A DNA stretch of 62,847 nt, from positions 1-62,847 of the forward strand of contig MGTY01000029.1 in NCBI GenBank assembly GCA_001799695.1, read 5' to 3'. The notes below the pieces were generated by a model. That model did no database searches. It was not told the DNA's origin and worked only from the letters and a program-made list of their open reading frames with translations. The DNA comes from Elusimicrobia bacterium GWA2_69_24 (GTDB lineage Bacteria; Elusimicrobiota; Elusimicrobia; UBA1565). Shown in pieces: positions 5,869-57,736 of this stretch (position 1 is the first letter of the stretch; the number at the start of each line of letters is the position of its first letter). Made by a program: the position numbers and the translations under genes.

Positions 5869-6134
5869 CCAGTGTAGTGAGTTATGAGTCCAATCACATT
5901 CGTCACCCCGGCGAAGGCCGGGGTCCAGGCGCCAGAACAGGTGTTTTGAATCCGTTCCTCACGCTGGATACCGGCTTTCGCCGGTATGACGGCTAGCCCG
6001 AACCTTCTGAGCGACTGTGCCCGGGCACAGTCCGGGGGGGCCCGCCGCTGGATAAGATGGACGAGCCAGCAACCCCCAGTGTAGTGAGTTATGAGTCCAA
6101 TCACATTCGTCACCCCGGCGAAGGCCGGGGTCCA
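5869..6134. repeat. Compound palindromic repeat element, copy 1
   Basis: This fills most of the 530-bp gap after carB. A 59-bp direct repeat occurs at 5869-5927 and again at 6076-6134, each containing a hairpin with stem CCCCGGC/GCCGGGG and loop GAAG (5906-5923 and 6113-6130). Between them are a second hairpin, ATACCGGC/GCCGGTAT at 5968-5987, and a copy of the 16-bp palindrome. A closely similar element lies at 24668-24965. The hairpin sequences belong to the widespread short repeats that read as TPAFAGVT or IPAKAGIQ when translated; they are non-coding here. I see no gene in 5702-6228. Confidence 0.85.
6015..6030. repeat. Palindromic repeat, copy 3
   Basis: Perfect CTGTGCCCGGGCACAG, extended to 20 bp of perfect symmetry at 6013-6032. 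It is embedded in the centre of the compound repeat element. Confidence 0.85.
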
Positions 6135-6228
6135 CTGGCGGGATGGGTCTTCTTGCCCAACCCCGCTTAGGCTCTTTTCCGGCCCGCCTCTAGGTCCCAA
6201 TCCCGCTGTCCTCCGGGCGCGGGAAGGC

Positions 6229-6234
6229 TAGACT
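6229..6234 (+). promoter_or_regulatory. -10 box immediately upstream of start
   Basis: TAGACT ends six bases before the ATG at 6241, which would place the transcription start on or next to that ATG. This favours 6241 over the upstream in-frame ATG at 6235 and implies a leaderless mRNA. The -35 region is weak. Confidence 0.4.
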
Positions 6235-6240
6235 ATGTCC

Positions 6241-7122
6241 ATGCCCTCTGCGCGCAAGTCCGGCCGTGCCGCCCGCGATGCCTGCCTGGCTCTGCTGGCC
6301 TGGCCTCTAGCAACCGCCTCGGCCCAGCTTTCTCTGGGCCCGGGCCTCGGCGGAGCCTCGGCTGCAGCCGGTCTGCCCGTTCAGGTGGCCATGGCCTGGG
6401 CCGTATCCATCCGGGACCCGCTGCAAGGCATCGACCTGGACTCGGTACTTCCCGACCTGAGGTCCTGCATGTCCGGGCTCGGCAGACTGGACCTGACCCA
6501 GCCGGAGCATTGGGCCCCCATCGAACCGGTGCTTTCCGAACTTTCCGCCAGCGGGCTCGGCCCGAAGGAATTCTCGGCCCTGGGACCGGCGCGCCGCCAG
6601 GAGGTGCTGGTCGCGGCCGTGTCCCGGGTCGCCGACTCTAAGCGCGCGCGGGCGGCCTTGCTGATCCTGCGCACCGGCACCGGCAGGATAGAGGACCATG
6701 TCCTCGAGTCCGTGGAAACCGAGTCCCACAGCCTGCGGCGGGATTCCCTGTTCCTCACCGAGCGCCTGCTTCGGGACGTCGACAGCATCGCCCGGCAGGC
6801 GTCACGCCAACGGGCCGAGCGGGAGCGCGCCCGGGTGCTCTCTTCCGCTCAGGAAACGGCGCGCCGGCTCGGGCAGATGAAGGAGGACTCCGCCGCGGAT
6901 CAGGTCGTCAGAACCGTCCTAGCTCCAGACGGCCGGCGCGTGCGCCTGGTGCGCCGCGGCACCGTTTACCAGGTCTTCTATGAAGGAGAGACGGAAGCCC
7001 TCGTCCGCTACGACATCGCGGACCTCGATAGCGATGGCATCCCCGCCTTCACCGTCGAGCGCGGCGGCCGGCGCGGGCTCCACATCAATGGCCGAGTCTT
7101 CTGGGAAGACGGCGTCTACTGA
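6241..7122 (+). CDS. Secreted protein of unknown function
   Basis: About 293 residues, not recognised. A basic N-terminus (ARKSGRAARD) and a hydrophobic stretch ending ATASAQ form a signal peptide. The middle third is helical and charged (about residues 170-215, rich in Arg and Glu) and may form a short coiled coil. The C-terminal 80 residues look beta-rich and contain a DLDSDGIP segment resembling a calcium-loop-like turn. The next gene also encodes an exported protein, 126 bp downstream. An ATG six bases further upstream is possible, but the -10 box argues for 6241. Confidence 0.6.
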   Translation: MPSARKSGRAARDACLALLAWPLATASAQLSLGPGLGGASAAAGLPVQVAMAWAVSIRDPLQGIDLDSVLPDLRSCMSGLGRLDLTQPEHWAPIEPVLSELSASGLGPKEFSALGPARRQEVLVAAVSRVADSKRARAALLILRTGTGRIEDHVLESVETESHSLRRDSLFLTERLLRDVDSIARQASRQRAERERARVLSSAQETARRLGQMKEDSAADQVVRTVLAPDGRRVRLVRRGTVYQVFYEGETEALVRYDIADLDSDGIPAFTVERGGRRGLHINGRVFWEDGVY

Positions 7123-7248
7123 TCGCCTTGTCTTCTTTAAGAGCGGCCGCCCTCCTGGCCCTGACTCTGTCCTGGCCCGGTCGGGACGAGATACCCTGAA
7201 AGAACTCGTCCCTGGGCGGTTCGGCCGAACCTGACGCAACAATACCCT

Positions 7249-8514
7249 ATGTTACGCGCTCCGCGGACTTCGCACCCTTATTGGGATTACGAGTTACGAC
7301 GCCTCACGGCGGCCGTCCTGCTCGCGCTTCTCGCTGCGGGGGCGGCCGCGGCGGAGCCCGGACTCACGCGGGTCTTCATCGACTGCTACGCCTGCGACCT
7401 CGACTACATCCGCACCGAGATCCCCTTCGTGGACCAGGTACGGGACCCGGAGCAGGCCCAGGTGCACGTGCTGGCCACCACCCAGCCCACGGGCGCGGGG
7501 GGGACCGAACTCACCTTCGCCTTCATCGGCCGGGAGGGCTGGGCCGGGTCGAGCGACACTTTGCGCGCGGTCTGGGCCCCGGCGGACACCGACGAAGAAC
7601 GCCGCGCCGCCGTGGTCCGGACGCTCAAGCTGGGGCTCATCCGCTACGTGGCCGGCACCCCCGCGGCCAAGGACATCGCCATCACCTATTCGGGTACCGG
7701 GGCCGCCGACGCGGCCGCCGACCCCTGGCGCTCCTGGGTCTTCACCGAGAGCGTCAACAGCGCCATGAGCGGCCAGCACGCCCGGAAGTCGGTCTCGCTC
7801 AACGCCTCCCTGAGCGCCAGCCGGGTGACCGCGCCCGCGAAGATCAACCTCAACGGCTGGGTGAACTACGGCGACGAGAAGTTCGAGACGGACTCGGGCC
7901 GCATCCGCAGTGTCACCCGCGACCAGGGCGCCTACGCCCTCTGGGTCAAGAGCCTGGGGGAGCACTGGTCGGCCGGCGCCCGCGGGACCCTCAACGCCTC
8001 GACCTACAACAACATGAAGCTCGCCGTGGCCGCGGGCCCCGCGGTGGAGTACGACTTCTTCCCCTATTCCCAGTCCACCCGGCGCCAGCTGCGCTTCCTG
8101 TACGGGGTCAACTACAACTCCTACCGCTACCGGGAAGAGACCATCTACGAAAAGACCTACGAGAACCTCTACGACCATTCCCTGACGGTCTCCTTGGAGG
8201 CCACCGAGAAGTGGGGCAGCGCCTACCTGAGCCTGCAGGGCTCGCATTACCTCCACGACATCCACAAGAACAACCTGCAGGTCACCGCCGACCTGTCCCT
8301 GCGGCTGTGGGAAGGCCTTTCCCTGCGCCTCTTCGCCACGGGCTCGCGGGTCCGCGACCAGCTGTTCCTGCCGCGCGGGGGGGCCACCGAGGAGGAGATA
8401 CTCCTCGAGCGCTCCGCCCTCGCCACCCAGTACACCTACAACAGCTCGGTGGGGCTCAGCTATACCTTCGGCTCCATCCACAACAACGTCGTGAACCCTC
8501 GCTTCGGCGCATGA
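7249..8514 (+). CDS. Putative outer-membrane beta-barrel protein
   Basis: A 421-residue exported protein. After a signal peptide (hydrophobic core LTAAVLLALLAAGAAA) comes a globular domain of about 120 residues beginning RVFIDCYACDLDYIR, with two cysteines three residues apart. The second half alternates polar and aromatic residues in strands typical of transmembrane beta barrels. The chain ends with SVGLSYTFGS followed by NNVVNPRF, a pattern seen in DUF481-like and related barrels. The function is unknown; the Cys-containing N-terminal domain could be periplasmic. The N-terminus before the hydrophobic core is unusually long, but no later in-frame ATG, GTG or TTG precedes that core. Confidence 0.65.
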   Translation: MLRAPRTSHPYWDYELRRLTAAVLLALLAAGAAAAEPGLTRVFIDCYACDLDYIRTEIPFVDQVRDPEQAQVHVLATTQPTGAGGTELTFAFIGREGWAGSSDTLRAVWAPADTDEERRAAVVRTLKLGLIRYVAGTPAAKDIAITYSGTGAADAAADPWRSWVFTESVNSAMSGQHARKSVSLNASLSASRVTAPAKINLNGWVNYGDEKFETDSGRIRSVTRDQGAYALWVKSLGEHWSAGARGTLNASTYNNMKLAVAAGPAVEYDFFPYSQSTRRQLRFLYGVNYNSYRYREETIYEKTYENLYDHSLTVSLEATEKWGSAYLSLQGSHYLHDIHKNNLQVTADLSLRLWEGLSLRLFATGSRVRDQLFLPRGGATEEEILLERSALATQYTYNSSVGLSYTFGSIHNNVVNPRFGA

Positions 8515-20722: not shown

Positions 20723-21510
20723 CAGAACCTCCCTCCGAATAGGTCGTATGCCGTCTTCAAGAGCAGCAGTCCGCTGATGAAGGCGATGGCCGGACGGATC
20801 GCGGCGGTGCCGCGCCTCAGCCCCAGATGCGAGCCCACCCAATGCCCCGCCACGCTCATGACCCCCATGGCCGCGCCCAGGGGGATATGGACGCGCCCCG
20901 CGTAGAGGAACGCGGCCAGCGCGGCCGCGTTGGAGGCGAGGTTCAAGGCCTTGGCATAGCCCGTGGCCTGGAGCAGATCGTAGCGGCAGAAACGGCTCAG
21001 ACCCAAAGCGAGGAAGGTCCCGGTGCCGGGCCCGAAGAAGCCGTCGTAGGCGCCGATGGGGAAGGCCACGGCGACCGAGCGGCGGCCCAGTTCCTTACGG
21101 GTGAAGCCTCCGCTCAGGTCCGACAGCCCGAAATGGTGCTTCACGAGCACCGAGTACATGACGAACGGGAGCATGAGCAGGAGGGCCCAGCGGATGAAGC
21201 CGGGGTCGAGCAGCATGGCCGCGCCGGCGCCGATAGCGGAGCCGACGAGCGCGGCCAGGGCCATGGGGGCCAAGGCGCGCAGGCTCAGCTTCAGGGTGCC
21301 GAAGTAGCGCAGGACCGAGACCACGGTGCCGATCGTGGAGGAGCACTTGTTGGTGCCGAGCACCAAGGGGAGGGGGAGGCCAAGGGCGGCGTAGGCCGGG
21401 AGCGTGATGATCCCGCCGCCGCCCGCCAAGGAATCCACCACGCCCGCGAGGAACACCAGCACGCCCAGTACCGCGAAGTGCAGGGTGGAGAACCCGAACA
21501 GCTCCGTCAT
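20722..21510 (-). CDS. TauE/SafE (TSUP) family transporter
   Basis: A 262-residue inner-membrane protein with about eight hydrophobic segments. The family signature is present: DSLAGGGGIITLPAYAALGLP near residue 26 and its repeat IGAYDGFFGPGTGTFLALG near 150, with TNKCSSTIG in between. TSUP proteins export or import small sulfonates, sulfite or organic anions. The start at 21510 overlaps the acyltransferase stop, and its own stop overlaps the next start, indicating translational coupling. The substrate cannot be inferred. Confidence 0.88.
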   Translation of the reverse strand: MTELFGFSTLHFAVLGVLVFLAGVVDSLAGGGGIITLPAYAALGLPLPLVLGTNKCSSTIGTVVSVLRYFGTLKLSLRALAPMALAALVGSAIGAGAAMLLDPGFIRWALLLMLPFVMYSVLVKHHFGLSDLSGGFTRKELGRRSVAVAFPIGAYDGFFGPGTGTFLALGLSRFCRYDLLQATGYAKALNLASNAAALAAFLYAGRVHIPLGAAMGVMSVAGHWVGSHLGLRRGTAAIRPAIAFISGLLLLKTAYDLFGGRF

Positions 21511-50070: not shown

Positions 50071-51174
50071 ATGATCGAGGGCAGGAAAACCGACCATTTG
50101 AAGCTCTGCGCGGAGCGGGACGTGGAGTTCCAGAACACCACGACCCTGCTGGAAGATGTGCGCTTCGTCCACGATGCCATGGCCGAGATAGCGTTTTCGG
50201 AGATAGACCTCGGGACCTCCTTCATGGGCCGCAAGCTCCGGGCGCCCTTCCTCATAAGCGCGATCACCGGAGGTATGGACGCCGCCAAGGACTTGAACCG
50301 CGACCTGGCCAAGGCCGCCCAGGAGCTGGGGATAGGATTCTGCCTGGGCAGCCAGCGTCCCATGATGGAAAACCCCTCAGCCGCCGATTCCTACCAGGTG
50401 CGCCGCTACGCCCCCGACATACCCATTTTAGGCAACATCGGCATACAGCAGGCCGCCACCGCCAAGCCTGCGGATATCGAACGGCTTGTGACCTCGATAG
50501 GCGCGGACGGCATCGCCGTGCACCTGAACCCCGCCCAGGAGCTCAGCCAGGCCGAGGGCGACCGCAGTTTCCCGGATGGGGCGGCCTTCCTTCGGGTCCT
50601 GACCAAGCGCATGCCCGGCAAGGTCATGGTCAAGGAGACCGGCTGCGGCATCTCGCGGGAGGTCGCGCTCCGACTCAAGGCCGCCGGCGTCCGCACCCTG
50701 GACACGGCCGGCGCCGGGGGGACCTCCTGGACCCGCGTGGAACGCCTGCGCGGCGCGCCTGGGCGCGCCGCCCTCGCAGGCGCCGGCCGTGCTCCTCTCG
50801 CCGGAGAGGAGGGCGGCTCCTGGCTCGATGAGTGGGGCATCCCCACCGCCGCCTCGCTGCTGGAGACCGCGCCCCTGGGGTTCACCTTGGTCGCCTCGGG
50901 CGGCATCCGCAACGGGCTGGACATCGCCAAGTGCCTGGCTTTGGGCGCCGACGTGTGCGGCATGGCGCTGCCCATCGTGCGGGCCTATTGCGGCGGGGGC
51001 TACGACGGCGTCGTGGGCCTCCTGCACCGGACCATCGACGAGCTCAAGTCGGTCATGGTCCTGGTCGGCGCGAAAGACCTTTCTTCACTCAAGCAGCGGA
51101 AAATCCTGATCACTGGAAGGCTCCTGGAATGGAAGACTTGCAGAAGCGCAACGACGGGCAGAAGCAGAAAGTAG
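50071..51174 (+). CDS. fni: Type 2 isopentenyl-diphosphate delta-isomerase
   Basis: 367 residues. This FMN/NAD(P)H-dependent enzyme interconverts IPP and DMAPP, the final step of the pathway encoded by this operon. Typical segments are RKTDHLKLC at the N-terminus, PFLISAITGGM, VHLNPAQE near 152, KETGCGIS near 193, AGAGGTSW near 216 and the FMN phosphate site ASGGIRNGLD near 276. After the GGTSW motif there is an Ala/Gly/Arg-rich insert (about 222-245, RGAPGRAALAGAG) in a stretch of short inverted repeats. The C-terminus runs 46 bp into the next gene. It is first in the mevalonate operon. Confidence 0.94.
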   Translation: MIEGRKTDHLKLCAERDVEFQNTTTLLEDVRFVHDAMAEIAFSEIDLGTSFMGRKLRAPFLISAITGGMDAAKDLNRDLAKAAQELGIGFCLGSQRPMMENPSAADSYQVRRYAPDIPILGNIGIQQAATAKPADIERLVTSIGADGIAVHLNPAQELSQAEGDRSFPDGAAFLRVLTKRMPGKVMVKETGCGISREVALRLKAAGVRTLDTAGAGGTSWTRVERLRGAPGRAALAGAGRAPLAGEEGGSWLDEWGIPTAASLLETAPLGFTLVASGGIRNGLDIAKCLALGADVCGMALPIVRAYCGGGYDGVVGLLHRTIDELKSVMVLVGAKDLSSLKQRKILITGRLLEWKTCRSATTGRSRK

Positions 51175-52490
51175 ACAAGCCGGCGGCGCGCACCTCGCGC
51201 TTCCCGGGTTTCTACAAGCTCGACATATGGGAGCGCCTCGACAAGCTGGGCGAATGGTTCCCGCTCACCACCAAGGAGAAGTGGCTGCTCAAGAACGAGA
51301 CCCTGAAGGCTGAGAAGGCCGACCTCATGGTCGAGAACGTCATCGGCGTCTTCGGCATGCCCCTGGCGGTCGCCCTCAATTTCCGCATCAACGACAAGGA
51401 CTGGGTCATCCCCATGGCCGTCGAGGAGACCTCCATCGTCGCCGCCTGCGGCCACATCGCCAAGCTGGTGCGCGAGAACGGCTCTTTGACCGCCAACGCC
51501 TCCCACGCCATCATGGAGGGGCAGGTCCAGCTCGTGAAAGTGCCCGACATCGACCGCGCGGTAAAGGACATCTTGGAGGCCAAGGACCGCCTGCTCAAGC
51601 TCGCCAATAAGCAGGACCGGACCCTGGTCAGCCTGGGCGGCGGGGCCAAGGACCTCACCTGCCGGCGCCTGGAGACCGCCAGCGGCCCCATGCTCATCAT
51701 CCACCTCGCCGTCGACGTGGTGGACGCCATGGGCGCCAACGCGGTCAACACCATGGTGGAGACCTTGGGCCCCGTGCTCGGGGAGATTGCGAAGGGGGAG
51801 GTGGTGCTGCAGATCATCTCGAACCTCTGCGACAAGGCCATCGCCCGCGCCCGCTTTGAGATGGACCCGGCCTGCCTGGGCAGCAAGGAGATGTCCGGCG
51901 CTCGGGTCGCCGAGCGCATCATCCAGGCCTATCATTTCGCCGACGCCGACCCCTACCGGGCCGCGACGCACAACAAGGGCATCATGAACGGCGTGGACGC
52001 GGTACTGCTCGCCACCGGCAACGACTGGCGCGCCGTGGAAGCCGGGATGCACGCCTACGCCGCGCGCACCGGCCGCTACCGCTCGCTCAGCAGCTACCGC
52101 CTCGAGAACGGCAAGCTCATCGGCGAGATCGAGGTGCCGGTCGCCGTGGGCGTCGTGGGGGGGGTCACCAAGCTCCACCCCGGGGTCGAGCTCATACTCA
52201 GGCTCATGGGCATGCCCTCCCGGCGCGAGCTCGCCGAGGTCATCGCCTCCGTCGGGCTCATCCAGAACCTCGGCGCCCTGCGCGCCTTGGTGACGGAAGG
52301 CATCCAGGAAGGCCACATGACGCTCCACGCCCGCAATGTGGCCTATTCGGCCGGGGCGTTCGGCGACGCGGCCATCAAGGTGGCCGACCAGATGATCCAG
52401 GAGGGCCGCATCCGCTTCGACCGCGCCCGCGAGCTGGTCAAGAAGCTCATCATCCAGAAGCAGCCGGAAGACGGGAACGGGGAGGACTAG
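51129..52490 (+). CDS. HMG-CoA reductase, class II-like
   Basis: 453 residues; reduces HMG-CoA to mevalonate, the committed step. The pattern fits the soluble class II (Pseudomonas mevalonii-type) enzymes with no membrane segments. Catalytic landmarks are visible: Glu-Glu 99/100 in AVEETSIVAA, Lys283 in HNKGIMNG, Asp299 in GNDWRAVEAG, and GHMTLHARN at 395-403 with the general-acid histidine. DAMGANAVNTM is the HMG-CoA contact region. The start at 51129 overlaps the isomerase end by 46 bp. The N-terminal 40 residues before the core are polar and variable. Confidence 0.94.
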   Translation: MEDLQKRNDGQKQKVDKPAARTSRFPGFYKLDIWERLDKLGEWFPLTTKEKWLLKNETLKAEKADLMVENVIGVFGMPLAVALNFRINDKDWVIPMAVEETSIVAACGHIAKLVRENGSLTANASHAIMEGQVQLVKVPDIDRAVKDILEAKDRLLKLANKQDRTLVSLGGGAKDLTCRRLETASGPMLIIHLAVDVVDAMGANAVNTMVETLGPVLGEIAKGEVVLQIISNLCDKAIARARFEMDPACLGSKEMSGARVAERIIQAYHFADADPYRAATHNKGIMNGVDAVLLATGNDWRAVEAGMHAYAARTGRYRSLSSYRLENGKLIGEIEVPVAVGVVGGVTKLHPGVELILRLMGMPSRRELAEVIASVGLIQNLGALRALVTEGIQEGHMTLHARNVAYSAGAFGDAAIKVADQMIQEGRIRFDRARELVKKLIIQKQPEDGNGED

Positions 52491-52498
52491 ACCGCCCC

Positions 52499-53467
52499 AT
52501 GCGCTGCGAGAAGGCGAAGGCGCCGTCCAAAGTCATACTCCTGGGTGAGCACGGCGCGGTCTACGGCCATCCCGCCGTGGCCATCCCCCTGCGCGAGCCC
52601 TCGGCCGAGGCCTCGGTGTGCTGGACCGGCGACGGCCAGCCCTACCGCATCGAACTCCCCGACCTGAACGCCGCCTGGGCTTACGGCGACGCGCAGATGC
52701 CGCCCGAGATCGTCCCCTTCGTCAAGATCATCGACCTGGCCCGCGAGCGCCACGGCAAGAGCATCGTCACCACCGGCTGGACCCTGAAGGTCAGCTCCGC
52801 CATCCCCACCGGCTGCGGCCTGGGCAGCAGCGCGGCCGTCTCGGCAGCGGCCCTCAAGGCCGTGTTCCGCTACTTCGGCATCCACGTGAAGGCCCAGACC
52901 CTCTCCGAGCTCGTCTTCGAGACCGAGAAGCTCCATCACGGGACCCCCAGCGGCATCGACAACACCGTCATCGCCATGGGCGTCCCCATCCTGTTCCGCA
53001 AGGGGCGCGGAGCCGAGTGCCTAGACGCGCCCGAGGAGCCCCTGTTCCTGGTCATCGGGTACACGGGCATCCGGCACAGCACCCGCGCCGTCATCGCCGA
53101 GGTGGCCCGGGCCCGCGCCGCCGAGCCGGCCAAGTACGACGCCCTGTTCGCCGAGATCGGCGCCCTGGCCCTCAAGGGGGCCGACGCTTTGCCCCGCGGC
53201 CACGCGGGCGAACTGGGCGAGCTCATGAACAAGACCCAGGAGCTCCTGCGGCAGGTCGGGGTCTCCTGCCCCGAGTTGGAGGCCCTGGTCACGGCGGCCC
53301 GCGGCGCCGGCGCGCTGGGCGCCAAATTGACCGGGGCGGGACGGGGCGGCTGCATGGTGGCCGTGACCGACGGGACGGACTCGGCGGAGGCCGTGCGCGC
53401 GGCCGTGGCGGCCGCGGGCTCCAAGCTCACCGTGGTCACCGGCATCCCGGGGAGGCTGAGAGAATGA
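52499..53467 (+). CDS. mvk: Mevalonate kinase
   Basis: 322 residues of the GHMP kinase family; makes mevalonate 5-phosphate. Motif 1 is SKVILLGEHGAVYGHPAVA, motif 2 the ATP-binding IPTGCGLGSSAAVSAA near residue 103, HHGTPSGIDNTV near 147 supplies the catalytic Asp, and motif 3 is KLTGAGRGGCM near 278. The match is specific to mevalonate kinase rather than phosphomevalonate kinase or decarboxylase, neither of which is found in the operon. It begins 8 bp after the reductase gene and overlaps the UbiX gene by 4 bp. Confidence 0.93.
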   Translation: MRCEKAKAPSKVILLGEHGAVYGHPAVAIPLREPSAEASVCWTGDGQPYRIELPDLNAAWAYGDAQMPPEIVPFVKIIDLARERHGKSIVTTGWTLKVSSAIPTGCGLGSSAAVSAAALKAVFRYFGIHVKAQTLSELVFETEKLHHGTPSGIDNTVIAMGVPILFRKGRGAECLDAPEEPLFLVIGYTGIRHSTRAVIAEVARARAAEPAKYDALFAEIGALALKGADALPRGHAGELGELMNKTQELLRQVGVSCPELEALVTAARGAGALGAKLTGAGRGGCMVAVTDGTDSAEAVRAAVAAAGSKLTVVTGIPGRLRE

Positions 53468-54015
53468 GGATCGTGGTAGGCATATCCGGCGCCTCGGGCG
53501 TCGTCATCGGCACCAGGCTCCTGTCGGAGCTCGCGGTGCGGGACTGCGAGGTGCACGCCATCGTCACCCAAGCCGCGCGGGCGGTCATCCGCCACGAGCT
53601 CGGCCCCAAGTTCCGCTTCCCCAAGGGCGTGCGCCTGCACGACGAGGGTGACGCGGCCTCGCCGCTCATGAGCTCCTCCTTCGTCGTGGACGCCATGGTC
53701 GTGGCCCCCTGCTCCATGAAGTCCTTGGCCGCCATCGCCACGGGCTACGCCGACACCTTGCTCGTGCGCAGCGCGGACAGCATGCTGAGGACCGGGCGCA
53801 AGCTGATCCTGGTCCCGCGCGAGACGCCGCTGTCTTTGTCCGCGCTCGAGAACATGGCCGCCTTGAAGCGCGGCGGGGCCGTCATCATGCCGCCCGCAGC
53901 CGCCTACTACCACCACCCCAAGACCGCCGACGACATGACCGGCTTCTTCGTGGGCAAGCTGCTCGACCTGCTGGGCATCCCCAACGACCTGTACCAGCGC
54001 TGGCAGGGCGCGTGA
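53464..54015 (+). CDS. ubiX: Flavin prenyltransferase (UbiX family)
   Basis: 183 residues. UbiX joins dimethylallyl phosphate to FMN to make prenylated FMN, the cofactor of UbiD-type decarboxylases. The FMN site is VVGISGASG at the N-terminus; APCSMKSLAAIATGYADTLLVR and LVPRETPLS follow as in all family members. It directly precedes a UbiD-family gene with a 4-bp overlap, so it should activate that enzyme. In this operon the prenyl donor can come from the pathway itself. Confidence 0.94.
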   Translation: MRIVVGISGASGVVIGTRLLSELAVRDCEVHAIVTQAARAVIRHELGPKFRFPKGVRLHDEGDAASPLMSSSFVVDAMVVAPCSMKSLAAIATGYADTLLVRSADSMLRTGRKLILVPRETPLSLSALENMAALKRGGAVIMPPAAAYYHHPKTADDMTGFFVGKLLDLLGIPNDLYQRWQGA

Positions 54016-55304
54016 TGGACATCCCTTCCTTCGTGCGGAGCCTGGCCCAGGCCGGGAAGCTCAAGACCATCGAGAAGCGCTTGAGCCCCGTGCTCGCCGC
54101 CTCGGCCGAGATCCGCGGCGCCGAGCCCGCGCCCGTGCTGCTCACGGACGTGGGCGGGGCCCGGGTCGCGGCCAACCTGTTCCCGGACCGCGACGCCTTG
54201 GCCCGCGGCCTGGGCGTGGACCCGCGGCGCTTCCTGCCCGAGCTGGGCGGCCTGCTCTCGGGCAAGACCAAGCGCCGGGGCGCCGGGAGCCGGCATTCGG
54301 ACGAGGTCTACGGCGAGGTGGAGGTGCCCCTCGGCGAGCTCGAGAAGCTCCCCTTCCTGACCTATTACCAGGGCGACGGCGGCCCCTTCCTGACCTCCGG
54401 GGTGTGGATCGTGCGCGACCCTGTGCTGGGCGTCAACCTGTCCTACCACCGCATGATGATCGCGGCCGGCGCCCGGCAGGGGACCGTGCGCGTGGTCGAG
54501 AACCGCGGCACCCACACCGCGCTCAAGAACAGCGGCGGCAAGCTCGACGCGGCCATCTGCATCGGGGCCCCGGTCGAGGTCTTGTTCGCGGCGTCCTTGT
54601 CGCCCGCCCCCGACGTCAACGAGATGGACCTGGCCGCGCTCTTGGGCCGCGTCGACCTGGTGCGCTGCAAGACCGTGGACCTGGAAGTCCCCGCCGCCTG
54701 CGAGCTGGTCATCGAGGGGACCTTCACCGGGGCCCAGGGCCGCGAGGGACCCTTCGTGGACATCACCGGGACCGTGGATCTCCCGCGCCGCCAGCCCGTG
54801 TTCCGCATCACCCGCGTCGCGCGCCGCCAGGACCCGCTCCACTACGCCATCGTGCCCGGCCGGGCCGACCACCGCGTGCTCATGGGCGTGCCCAAGGAGC
54901 TCGACATGTTCCGGGCCGTGGGCCAGGTCTGCCGGGTCCTGGACGTGCGCGTCACCCCCGGGGGCTGCTGCTGGCTCCACGCCGTGATCCGCATCGACAA
55001 GCGCAAGCCCGGCGACGGGCCCCGCGCCATCGCCGCCGCCTTCGCCGCGCACCGCTCGCTCAAGCATTGCGTGGTCGTGGACGCCGACGTCGACGCCGGC
55101 GACCCCGCCGACGTGGAGTGGGCCGTGGCCACCCGCTTCCAGGCGGATAAGGACCTCGTCGTCCTGAGCGACCAGCCCGCCAGCTCGCTCGACCCCTCGG
55201 CCTGCCACTTCGCGGGGGCCAAGAGCCGCGGCGCCAAGATGGGCCTCGACGCCACCATCAAGCGGCCCGGCGAGCGCAAGCTGTTCATGCGGGTCACCGC
55301 GTGA
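54012..55304 (+). CDS. UbiD-family decarboxylase, probable anhydromevalonate phosphate decarboxylase
   Basis: 430 residues, starting at GTG 54012 (or the adjacent ATG at 54015). UbiD enzymes use prenyl-FMN and a catalytic Arg/Glu/acid set; here SYHRMM (Arg147) and REGPFVDITG (Glu245, Asp250) fit, with Asp in place of the usual last Glu. In the archaeal mevalonate route this family decarboxylates trans-anhydromevalonate 5-phosphate to isopentenyl phosphate. The assignment rests on position: between UbiX and the two dehydratase subunits, followed by isopentenyl phosphate kinase. No ubiquinone or aromatic-acid genes are nearby. Confidence 0.87.
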   Translation: MMDIPSFVRSLAQAGKLKTIEKRLSPVLAASAEIRGAEPAPVLLTDVGGARVAANLFPDRDALARGLGVDPRRFLPELGGLLSGKTKRRGAGSRHSDEVYGEVEVPLGELEKLPFLTYYQGDGGPFLTSGVWIVRDPVLGVNLSYHRMMIAAGARQGTVRVVENRGTHTALKNSGGKLDAAICIGAPVEVLFAASLSPAPDVNEMDLAALLGRVDLVRCKTVDLEVPAACELVIEGTFTGAQGREGPFVDITGTVDLPRRQPVFRITRVARRQDPLHYAIVPGRADHRVLMGVPKELDMFRAVGQVCRVLDVRVTPGGCCWLHAVIRIDKRKPGDGPRAIAAAFAAHRSLKHCVVVDADVDAGDPADVEWAVATRFQADKDLVVLSDQPASSLDPSACHFAGAKSRGAKMGLDATIKRPGERKLFMRVTA

Positions 55305-56536
55305 AGCTTTCCCGGGAGGAGAACGCCATCCTGGAGGGCAGGCTCGGGGCCGGCGCCCGCAAGGCCATGGAGATCCTCACCGCTTTGGGCGCCTTGAGCG
55401 GCTCCCCGGACATGGTAGAGGTCCGCTCCGTGCAGGTCTCGGGCGTCAGCTACGCCAACATCGGCGAGCACGGGCTGGCCTTCCTGGAAGCCTGGGCCGC
55501 GCAGGGCTCGCGCGCCGTGGTCCCGGCCTTCATGAACCCCGGCGGGGCCGACCGCAGGCTCTGGCGCAGCCTGGGCTATCCCGCCGCCTTCGTGCGCAAG
55601 CAGAACCAGGTCATCGCCGCCCTCGAGAAGTTGGGCGTGCAGCCCACCCTAACCTGCACCCCGTACCACTGCGGCCAGACGCCGGCCTTCGGCCAGCACC
55701 TGGCCTGGGCGGAATCCTCGGCGGTCTGCTTCGCCAACTCGGTCGCCGGAGCGCGCACCAACCGGGAGGGGGGGCCCTCCGCCATCGCCGCGGCCCTGAC
55801 CGGACGCACGCCCCGCCATACTTTGCACACCGACGAGGGCCGGCGCCCCACCCGGCTCGTCGAGGTGGGGTGCCGGGTCAAGAGCGTGGCCGACGCCGGG
55901 GCCCTGGGCTATCTGATCGGGAAGCTGGTCTCGGAGGACCCCAAGGGCGGCGTGCCCTACATCGTGGGCGTGGAGCCGCCGGACGGGCCCATGCGCCTCA
56001 CTTGGCTCAAGGCCCTGGGCGCGGCCATGGCCGCCTCCGGCTCGGTCGGGCTGTACCACCTCGACAGGGTCACCCCGGAGGCCGTGGCCTGCGGGCGCGC
56101 GCTCGCGTCCCGCCTGGCCAAGCGCTCCGTGGTGGCCGGCCTCCAAGACGGCCATCGCGCCCTGGGGACCGGACGCGGCGCCGCCGACCTCGTGGCCATC
56201 GGCTGCCCCCACGCCTCGCCCGACGACCTCCGGCACATCGCCGGCCTGCTCAAGGGGCGCCGGGTCAAGACCCCGCTCTGGATATTCGTGGCTTCGGACG
56301 TCCGGCGCCAGGCCAAGAAGGACGGCAGCGCCGCCAAGCTCGCCAAGTCCGGGGCCATCTTGGTCTCGGACACCTGCATCGTGGTCAGCCCCCTCAAGGA
56401 ACTCGGCGTCAAGACCGTGGCCACCGACTCGGCCAAGGCCGCGTTCTACCTGCCCTCCCACCACGGGGTGGGCGTGCACTTCGGCGCCACCGAGGACTGC
56501 GTGGAGACCGCGCTCCGGGGCAAGCATGGCGCCTGA
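55301..56536 (+). CDS. Phosphomevalonate dehydratase large subunit (aconitase X type)
   Basis: 411 residues of the aconitase X/DUF521 family. With its small subunit it should dehydrate mevalonate 5-phosphate to trans-anhydromevalonate 5-phosphate. LTCTPYHCGQ (Cys119, Cys124), IGCPHAS (Cys302) and SDTCIVVSPL (Cys359) provide plausible ligands for the iron-sulfur cluster. SVAGARTNREGG near residue 147 and TNSAKAA-like ATDSAKAAFYLP near the C-terminus are family hallmarks. Start is GTG overlapping the previous stop; the end overlaps the small-subunit gene by 11 bp. Hydroxyproline dehydratases share this family, but the context excludes that role. Confidence 0.9.
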   Translation: MKLSREENAILEGRLGAGARKAMEILTALGALSGSPDMVEVRSVQVSGVSYANIGEHGLAFLEAWAAQGSRAVVPAFMNPGGADRRLWRSLGYPAAFVRKQNQVIAALEKLGVQPTLTCTPYHCGQTPAFGQHLAWAESSAVCFANSVAGARTNREGGPSAIAAALTGRTPRHTLHTDEGRRPTRLVEVGCRVKSVADAGALGYLIGKLVSEDPKGGVPYIVGVEPPDGPMRLTWLKALGAAMAASGSVGLYHLDRVTPEAVACGRALASRLAKRSVVAGLQDGHRALGTGRGAADLVAIGCPHASPDDLRHIAGLLKGRRVKTPLWIFVASDVRRQAKKDGSAAKLAKSGAILVSDTCIVVSPLKELGVKTVATDSAKAAFYLPSHHGVGVHFGATEDCVETALRGKHGA

Positions 56537-56930
56537 CACAAAGACGCTGCGCGGCCGCGTCCTCTTCCCGGGCGAAGCCCGGGGCACCGCCCTGCGCTCG
56601 CAAGTCCCCCTGGGGCTGTTCGGCCACCTCGACCCCAAGACCGGCGTCTACCGCGAGGCCGGGCACCCCTTGGACGGGCAGTGCGTCAAGGACCGCATCC
56701 TGGTCTTCCCGCGCGCCAAGGGCAGCACGGTGGGCTCCTACATCCTCTACGCCCTGCGCAAGAGCGGTGCCGCCCCCGCGGCGATGCTCCTGAGCGAGGC
56801 CGACACCATCGTGGCGGTCGGGGCCATCATCGCCGAGATTCCCACGGTCGACGGGGTCGACCTCGCGTCCGTGCCGGACGGGGCCCGGCTCCGCGTGCAG
56901 GGCGGCGAGATCCGGGTGGAAGAGGGCTGA
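56526..56930 (+). CDS. Phosphomevalonate dehydratase small subunit (DUF126)
   Basis: 134 residues, the swivelling domain that completes the aconitase X active site. The family pattern is clear: GRVLFPGEARGTAL near the N-terminus, GHPLDGQCVKDRILVFP, and KGSTVGSYILY (Gly66-Ser71), the likely substrate-phosphate loop. It is encoded separately, as in archaeal phosphomevalonate dehydratase. It overlaps the large-subunit gene by 11 bp, and its stop shares one base with the next start. Confidence 0.92.
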   Translation: MAPDTKTLRGRVLFPGEARGTALRSQVPLGLFGHLDPKTGVYREAGHPLDGQCVKDRILVFPRAKGSTVGSYILYALRKSGAAPAAMLLSEADTIVAVGAIIAEIPTVDGVDLASVPDGARLRVQGGEIRVEEG

Positions 56931-57736
56931 TGGTCTCCAAGGTCTTCATCAAGCTCGGCGGGTCCTTCATCACCGACAAGGCCGTGCCCGAAACCCTCAA
57001 CGGCGAGCGCATCACGGCCGCGGCGCGCATGATCCGGGCCGCCATCGAGGCCGCCGCCGCCCAGGGCGACGCCCTCTCCATCATTTTGGGCCACGGAGCC
57101 GGCTCCTTCGGGCACATCGCCGCCCTGAAGTTCTCGGCGGTCCAGGGCGTGCACCCGGAGTTCGGCTGGCAGGGGCTCTACGCCATCCGGGAAGCCATGA
57201 CCCGAATGAACCTCCTGGTGCTCCAGCGCTGCAAGGAGGGGGGGCTCTACCCGGTGACCGTCTCCCCGTTCGCCGTGACCCAGGCCAAGGGGGGCAAGGT
57301 GCTCCGGCTGGACGCCGAGAACATCCAGCAGCTCCTCCTTTCGGAGCAGATCCCGCTCGTGCACGGGGACGCGGTGCCGGACACCGAGCGCGGCTTCACC
57401 ATCGCCTCCACCGAGGCACTGCTCGCGGCCCTGGGCGACCGCTTCCGCTTCGACCGCGTCGTCATGGTCTCCGACACCCCCGGCGTGCTGGACCAGAACG
57501 GGCGCACCATCCCTCTCATCGACCGCCGCAACCTCGACCAGATGGCCGCCTGCCTGGGCGCCTCGGGCGCCCCCGACGTCACGGGGGGGATGCGCAAGAA
57601 AGTGGAGAACCTGCTCGCCCTTATCCGGCGCGGCGCGGCCAACGAGGCCCGCATCCTGACCTTCTCCGACCGGCCCGAGGACCTGCGCGACGCCGTCCTG
57701 GGCGCGGGCGAAGCCGGCACCCTGCTGAGGCTGTAG
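56930..57736 (+). CDS. Isopentenyl phosphate kinase
   Basis: 268 residues of the amino acid kinase fold; phosphorylates isopentenyl phosphate to IPP. KLGGSFITDK at the N-terminus binds ATP phosphates. HGAGSFGH (residues 55-62) carries the His that distinguishes this enzyme from other amino acid kinases. HGDAVPD near 140 and VSDTPGVLDQNG near 180 complete the site, and TGGMRKKVENLL is the usual C-terminal segment. Length is normal. The ATG overlaps the previous TGA by one base. It is the last enzyme of the mevalonate operon. Confidence 0.94.
   Translation: MVSKVFIKLGGSFITDKAVPETLNGERITAAARMIRAAIEAAAAQGDALSIILGHGAGSFGHIAALKFSAVQGVHPEFGWQGLYAIREAMTRMNLLVLQRCKEGGLYPVTVSPFAVTQAKGGKVLRLDAENIQQLLLSEQIPLVHGDAVPDTERGFTIASTEALLAALGDRFRFDRVVMVSDTPGVLDQNGRTIPLIDRRNLDQMAACLGASGAPDVTGGMRKKVENLLALIRRGAANEARILTFSDRPEDLRDAVLGAGEAGTLLRL

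Follow-up and report, generated by a model that had tools for sequence, protein, structure and literature searches.

Organization of an eight-gene operon

The window examined here spans positions 1–62,847 of contig MGTY01000029.1 from Elusimicrobia bacterium GWA2_69_24, whose genome (G000) is a 4.2-Mb draft of 132 contigs that is 85.07% complete. At positions 50071–57736 it carries eight contiguous open genes, all on the plus strand, each of which scores over a curated cut-off in NCBIfam or Pfam. An earlier note, made from the sequence alone, had proposed this set as a complete archaeal-type mevalonate pathway in one operon of a bacterium, and all eight of its members are indeed present.

50071–51174, plus strand: fni, type 2 isopentenyl-diphosphate isomerase, 367 amino acids (aa); TIGR02151, 343.5 bits (cut-off 281.3)
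51129–52490, plus strand: 3-hydroxy-3-methylglutaryl-CoA (HMG-CoA) reductase (HMGR), class II, 453 aa; TIGR00532, 389.9 bits (cut-off 260.0)
52499–53467, plus strand: mevalonate kinase (MVK), 322 aa; TIGR00549, 240.6 bits (cut-off 163.1)
53464–54015, plus strand: UbiX flavin prenyltransferase, 183 aa; TIGR00421, 194.9 bits (cut-off 108.9) and NF004685, 205.4 bits (cut-off 188)
54012–55304, plus strand: UbiD-family decarboxylase, proposed trans-anhydromevalonate 5-phosphate decarboxylase; TIGR00148, 308.1 bits (cut-off 244.9)
55301–56536, plus strand: AcnX large subunit, proposed phosphomevalonate dehydratase, 411 aa; PF04412, 446.1 bits (cut-off 31.5)
56526–56930, plus strand: AcnX small (swivel) subunit, 134 aa; PF01989, 106.5 bits (cut-off 27)
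56930–57736, plus strand: isopentenyl phosphate kinase (IPK), 268 aa; NF040647, 148.3 bits (cut-off 120)

The UbiD frame is 430 aa long if read from the GTG at 54012 and 429 aa long from the ATG at 54015. Overlaps or gaps of at most 8 bp had been described throughout, a figure that needs correction at two junctions: fni and the HMGR gene overlap by 46 nucleotides (nt), taking the first HMGR ATG at 51129, and the two AcnX subunit genes overlap by 11 nt. The remaining junctions consist of one 8-nt gap and overlaps of 1–4 nt.

Read together, these genes predict a route from HMG-CoA to both C5 isoprenoid precursors. HMGR would convert HMG-CoA to mevalonate, and mevalonate kinase would convert mevalonate to mevalonate 5-phosphate. 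The two-subunit AcnX iron–sulfur (Fe–S) enzyme would then remove water from mevalonate 5-phosphate to give trans-anhydromevalonate 5-phosphate, which UbiD, using prenylated flavin mononucleotide (FMN) from UbiX, would decarboxylate to isopentenyl phosphate. Finally, IPK would form isopentenyl diphosphate (IPP) and the type 2 isomerase would convert IPP to dimethylallyl diphosphate. HMG-CoA itself would be supplied in the window genome by an archaeal-type thiolase, a DUF35-like protein and an HMG-CoA synthase encoded on another contig; taken by itself, the operon does not cover the way from acetyl-CoA, as the synthase and thiolase lie elsewhere. These enzymatic activities, and the flux through the route, are predictions from gene content and conserved residues, and the operon was probably acquired by horizontal transfer. 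We consider it highly probable that the operon-encoded enzymes form the C5 precursors through the archaeal (modified) mevalonate route, and that this is the sole route to IPP in five of the ten Elusimicrobia genomes that carry a full-length AcnX.

Operon conservation and absence of MEP markers

Of 340 genomes in the phylum Elusimicrobia, ten encode a full-length AcnX that scores over the Pfam cut-off, and all ten belong to the order of the window genome; partial matches below the cut-off (E ≤ 0.001) were seen in 65 further genomes. The ten are drafts of 79–99% completeness and belong to families f1 (G000 and G190), f2 (G183) and f3 (G212, G213, G228, G230, G231, G233 and G234), leaving 46 others among the 56 genomes of the order. 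All eight genes recur in the same order in seven separate bins, and therefore the arrangement is not due to chance. The same order is seen in part in G228 and G231, where contigs end, so that fni was not found and the edge genes are cut. Identity to the window proteins across these relatives is 71–80% for HMGR, 49–58% for MVK and 53–74% for the other six. Extra sequence with small open reading frames lies between ubiX and ubiD in G190 (L071, about 7700–8470) and G212 (L064, about 6000–7380).

Three enzymes of the methylerythritol phosphate (MEP) pathway, IspG, DXR and IspH, served as markers of the other route to IPP and were found in 47, 45 and 47 of the 56 genomes of the order, respectively. 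All three are jointly absent from exactly five genomes (G000, G190, G212, G213 and G234). Each of these five carries AcnX, and the triple absence occurs in none of the 46 others (hypergeometric P = 6.6 × 10−5, relatedness not corrected for). The earlier note had named a complete MEP or classical mevalonate pathway elsewhere in the genome among the findings that would speak against it. No match to IspG, DXR or IspH was obtained in the window genome, and to this extent the absence holds, Dxs, IspD, IspE and IspF not having been searched.

Could these genes be missing simply because the genomes are incomplete, with the MEP pathway as the housekeeping route and the operon accessory everywhere? All ten AcnX-bearing genomes are drafts and five of them keep the three markers, and gaps in one or two markers also occur in genomes without a full-length AcnX, such as G187, G198, G205 and G206. 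Against this stand the confinement of the triple absence to AcnX-bearing genomes and the state of the site at which dxr usually resides. In the MEP genomes G227 and G185, which lack a full-length AcnX and for which the region was fetched, dxr lies between cdsA and rseP, and in G228 dxr adjoins rseP. By contrast, in four of the five genomes without markers (G190, G212, G213 and G234, which are 91–93% complete), the assembled junction runs from cdsA directly into rseP with no dxr in it, the distance between the aligned ends being 1–109 nt versus 1201 and 1240 nt in two MEP genomes. We therefore regard incompleteness as an improbable explanation, and favour a model in which the operon would have taken over from an ancestral MEP pathway in these five genomes, including that of the window.

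For the classical mevalonate route, the earlier note reported that diphosphomevalonate decarboxylase is missing from the operon and called for a search of the parent genome. Across the order, matches to the diphosphomevalonate/phosphomevalonate decarboxylase family (PF22700), which would mark a classical or haloarchaeal-type pathway, are weak, occurring in 10 of 56 genomes with none over the cut-off. The sole weak match in the window genome is MVK itself. That genome has four GHMP-kinase matches, two of which were placed, as MVK and as a heptose-kinase-like gene on contig C100 (no dedicated search for phosphomevalonate kinase was made).

Residues of the AcnX dehydratase

The large subunit of the window AcnX is closer to the archaeal enzyme than to cis-3-hydroxyproline dehydratase. 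It matches Thermococcus kodakarensis AcnX (TkAcnX, structures 7cnr and 7cns) with 277.9 bits and 42% identity, and scores lower, at 194.9–200.1 bits, against three chains of cis-3-hydroxyproline dehydratase, the type I member of the same family. The small subunit matches its TkAcnX counterpart (7cnr_B) with 123.4 bits. TkAcnX differs from the bacterial large subunit in lacking a 9-residue stretch (87–95), and type I AcnX differs in having another set of cysteines and a single fused chain.

According to the Thermococcus study (PMC10040528), the substrate phosphate is contacted by Gly48, Val49, Ser50, Asn53, Asn79 and Pro80 and the carboxylate by Thr63, Ser130 and Lys361, and three cysteines are conserved. 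At the aligned positions, the window AcnX has the same residues as the Thermococcus enzyme (G48, V49, S50, N53, N79, P80, S139 and K379), and C119, C302, C359 and E138 likewise match the archaeal enzyme. The placed residues are invariant in all ten AcnX-bearing genomes, save that V49 is I in two. Thr63 found no place in the large chain, and because residue 63 there is R rather than T, it may be a residue of the small subunit, in which a KGST motif is kept in 10/10.

These residues bear on whether the AcnX pair might act on cis-3-hydroxy-L-proline or another substrate, with UbiD and UbiX engaged in quinone or aromatic-acid chemistry and the operon encoding only a partial mevalonate pathway. Such an assignment draws on NCBIfam, in which the large subunit matches cis-3-hydroxyproline dehydratase best, far under the cut-off (265.4 of 700 bits; 73.5 for the small subunit), and on the frequent occurrence of bacterial AcnX homologues on plasmids, where a scan of a plasmid collection returned 160 records, all below 60% identity (34–38% among the 40 matches listed). 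However, the third cysteine of type I enzymes, the Fe–S cysteine at site C, is replaced by V361 in 10/10, the archaeal-conserved C302 is present, and those contacts to phosphate and carboxylate for which a position was assigned are retained. Moreover, the AcnX genes lie between those for mevalonate kinase and IPK in ten genomes in which no diphosphomevalonate decarboxylase was found. Action on another substrate, which the earlier note had itself raised for this DUF521/DUF126 pair, thus seems very unlikely, and we retain the assignment as phosphomevalonate dehydratase. The neighbours of a two-subunit AcnX homologue on the one plasmid examined, ilvD, an oxidoreductase and a TRAP transporter gene, are unrelated to those of the operon. 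A scan of viral contigs that also used the archaeal chain revealed no relative.

Other enzymes of the operon

UbiD carries the UbiD N, Rift and C domains, with 6h6v (214.5 bits) as its nearest solved structure. The presumed catalytic residues of UbiD (R146, E234 and E244) are conserved in 10/10. UbiD and UbiX are both present and conserved, and UbiX is the predicted supplier of prenylated FMN to the decarboxylase. IPK finds its best solved structure in 3k4o, described as 'isopentenyl phosphate kinase', at 105.9 bits versus 41.4 for FomA.

The label 'archaeal-type' refers to the chemistry of the route, as HMGR is a class II enzyme nearest, among solved structures, to bacterial ones. The motifs ENVIG, HNKGIMNG, GNDWRA and LHARN are all present in this protein, and its best solved structure is 1qax (424.7 bits), which we take to be a class II enzyme from a bacterium; the three lowest of 11 structure matches score 190–202 bits. 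MVK has no clear origin as judged from its structure matches, because kinases from archaea, protists and bacteria are mixed among the top six (133.8 to 118.5 bits); 1kkh and 1vis reach 92 bits. A separate feature of MVK is its phosphate-binding motif (window positions 52817–52837), which reads GLGSSAA in the window and GLGSG in all nine relatives.

Host of the operon

In G230 and G233, the operon is inserted on the opposite strand between cdsA and dxr within the bacterial cluster rpsB-tsf-pyrH-frr-uppS-cdsA-dxr-rseP. For rpsB, tsf, pyrH, frr, dxr and rseP the scores exceed the NCBIfam cut-offs, and cdsA and rimP match below theirs. A scan of genome contigs for AcnX, which used two short clade-specific patterns and so says nothing on more distant bacteria or archaea, gave eight loci, all deposited as Elusimicrobia metagenome-assembled genomes in at least four isolate naming series. 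Misbinning of archaeal DNA with a bacterial genome, a concern that the earlier note had raised for this contig and for which the archaeal character of several genes is the sole argument, can be set aside as highly improbable given the ten separate bins, the eight Elusimicrobia deposits, the insertion into a bacterial cluster in two relatives and an operon GC content (0.704) close to that of the window (0.684).

Archaeal membrane lipid synthesis was considered and dropped, as the window genome has no match to geranylgeranylglyceryl phosphate synthase (PF01884). Matches to this family in the order are weak and partial and occur in 7 of 56 genomes, one of them (G188) just over the cut-off. Elsewhere in the window, at 20870–20962, ARAGORN calls a tRNA-like gene whose anticodon has four bases (gagg) and to which no amino acid is assigned, possibly a false call.

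Supply of HMG-CoA

Contig C107 of the window genome carries an HMG-CoA synthase, a thiolase and a DUF35-like protein side by side on the minus strand, and a second synthase with an adjacent thiolase-like frame lies on contig C120.

L082, 5857–6978, minus strand: HMG-CoA synthase; TIGR00748, 520.1 bits (cut-off 353.4); structure 6esq, 470.4 bits
L082, 4696–5853, minus strand: thiolase; NF004720, 508.3 bits (cut-off 420)
L082, 4303–4686, minus strand: DUF35-like protein; sole NCBIfam match, at 43.6 bits (cut-off 250), to a subunit of BbsA type
L124, 1549–2694: second HMG-CoA synthase (C120); TIGR00748, 471.3 bits; 53% identical to the first
L124, 383–1537: thiolase-like frame beside the second synthase (C120); NF004720, 420.1 bits (cut-off 420)

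The name DUF35 for the small protein beside the synthase on C107 is our own presumption. An archaeal-type HMG-CoA synthase was found in half of the ten genomes with AcnX (G000, G190, G212, G213 and G230) and in none of the 46 others of the order, with scores of 386–846 bits, the next best match being 52. PF01154 matches in G233 and G234 were rejected as HMG-CoA synthases, since the proteins are FabH.

In G230, genes for a biotin carboxylase, a carrier, a carboxyltransferase and an enoyl-CoA hydratase directly precede the synthase–thiolase pair (L085:7049–11448). The best match of the hydratase is gamma-carboxygeranoyl-CoA hydratase (233.9 bits, below the cut-off of 426). This neighbourhood suggests, short of proof, that HMG-CoA supply is linked to leucine breakdown, and members of the group without an HMG-CoA synthase may feed the operon with leucine-derived HMG-CoA.

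Observations that weigh against the proposed route

Several observations count against the operon as a complete and sole route to IPP. IspG, DXR and IspH are all present in the AcnX-bearing genomes G183, G228, G230, G231 and G233, so the operon is not always the only route, and absence of the MEP pathway is judged from three of its seven enzymes. The window genome has no rseP match and its cdsA–rseP region is unassembled, so its own dxr loss is not visible at the junction; furthermore, G189, which has no full-length AcnX, also lacks dxr at the cdsA–rseP site and carries a divergent dxr elsewhere. The archaeal-type HMG-CoA synthase was not found in five AcnX-bearing genomes, among them G233, at 99% completeness, and G234, which lacks the MEP markers and is 93% complete; the upper pathway is unexplained in these five. 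Gene integrity is a further concern, as fni is split between frames in the MEP-less G213 (L065:15301–16283), and three of the eight genes look broken in G183 (L069:9416–14448), where fni and the HMGR gene are split between frames and the UbiD gene contains a stop. These defects may reflect decay or sequence error; in G183 the operon may be decaying, as its MEP markers are still there. Lastly, anhydromevalonate phosphate is a putative substrate of UbiD, assigned from the operon context, as the references compared do not allow its specificity to be read from sequence.

Signs of gene exchange within the order

Exchange of pathway genes was assessed with 20 loci each for IspG, DXR and IspH, drawn from the 47, 45 and 47 positive genomes, with two IspH loci coming from G186. 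A divergent IspH is found in six genomes of genus g19 (G228–G233), in G189 and as the second copy in G186 (L175–L182). It shares about 30–33% average identity with the rest, whereas the remaining IspH proteins compared are 76% identical to each other, an apparent replacement by a foreign gene. The DXR proteins of G229 and G189 are also divergent (44% identity to G227 versus 59–73% for others), and the IspG of G189 groups with genus g19 (support 0.997).

In a tree of the concatenated operon proteins (FastTree only, unrooted, with pieced-together proteins for G183 and G213), the window operon groups with those of G212 and G213 (support 1.000), although the kinship labels place its genome in one family with G190. 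A housekeeping tree, which does not include G000, places G190 with its f1 relatives. This disagreement between operon tree and kinship hints at transfer within the order.

G190 (L071:12179–12985) and G234 (L066:15181–15981) encode a second type of UppS beside or near the operon, and their two proteins share 67% identity. Neither genome has a uppS at the usual site between frr and cdsA, and G231 carries a 69% relative of this second type. An archaeal origin of the operon-side UppS of G190 was dropped, as the protein matches NF011409 best, with 284.8 bits (cut-off 425), and structure 1f75 with 208.8 bits versus 74.6 for 7caq, which we take to be archaeal.

These patterns allow a tentative proposal, which we put forward as a possibility somewhat short of even, that the isoprenoid pathway is an exchangeable module in this order: the archaeal operon would have entered, passed from family to family and made the native MEP genes dispensable, with some members swapping back or losing the operon again. 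G189 is a candidate for reversal to the MEP pathway: it belongs to the same genus as G190, which is MEP-less, and has no full-length AcnX, a dxr-less cdsA–rseP site, divergent dxr and ispH genes and a g19-like ispG. G183, in which MEP markers are present and three operon genes look broken, may have been caught losing the operon.

Relation to known pathways

The archaeal modified mevalonate pathway via trans-anhydromevalonate 5-phosphate was reported from Aeropyrum pernix (Hayakawa 2018, as cited in PMC13001223, PMC10040528 and PMC8184944). The Elusimicrobia operon resembles it in encoding the same enzyme set after HMG-CoA, in keeping the dehydratase cysteines and the substrate residues that could be placed and, in the window genome, in being accompanied by an archaeal-type HMG-CoA synthase and thiolase. 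It differs in its bacterial host, in the grouping of eight genes in one operon and in a class II HMGR nearest to bacterial structures; furthermore, some relatives have lost the MEP markers, which others retain.

A 2023 abstract (PMC10040528) describes the route as unique to archaea. Some Chloroflexota are stated to encode the archaeal-type pathway in a later text, which cites Kanno 2024 on Candidatus Promineifilum breve (PMC13001223). That organism is reportedly likewise a bacterium with the whole archaeal route, and the Elusimicrobia differ from it in phylum, in having a single eight-gene operon and in the comparative evidence of MEP loss. Kanno 2024 (AEM 90:e0110624) reportedly tested both signature enzymes from Candidatus Promineifilum breve. 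Bacteria with an archaeal mevalonate pathway are thus known in kind, and what appears to be new is the phylum, the arrangement as a single operon and the indications that MEP was replaced; titles and abstract openings in the literature searched contain no report of this pathway in Elusimicrobia.

If the assignment is correct, Elusimicrobia would be a second bacterial phylum with the route, here as one operon. The mevalonate route that it encodes is thought to use less energy, as stated in PMC11052028, and the operon would offer a compact gene set for it. Close relatives that carry MEP markers only, both systems or the operon only would further constitute a natural series for the replacement of an essential pathway.

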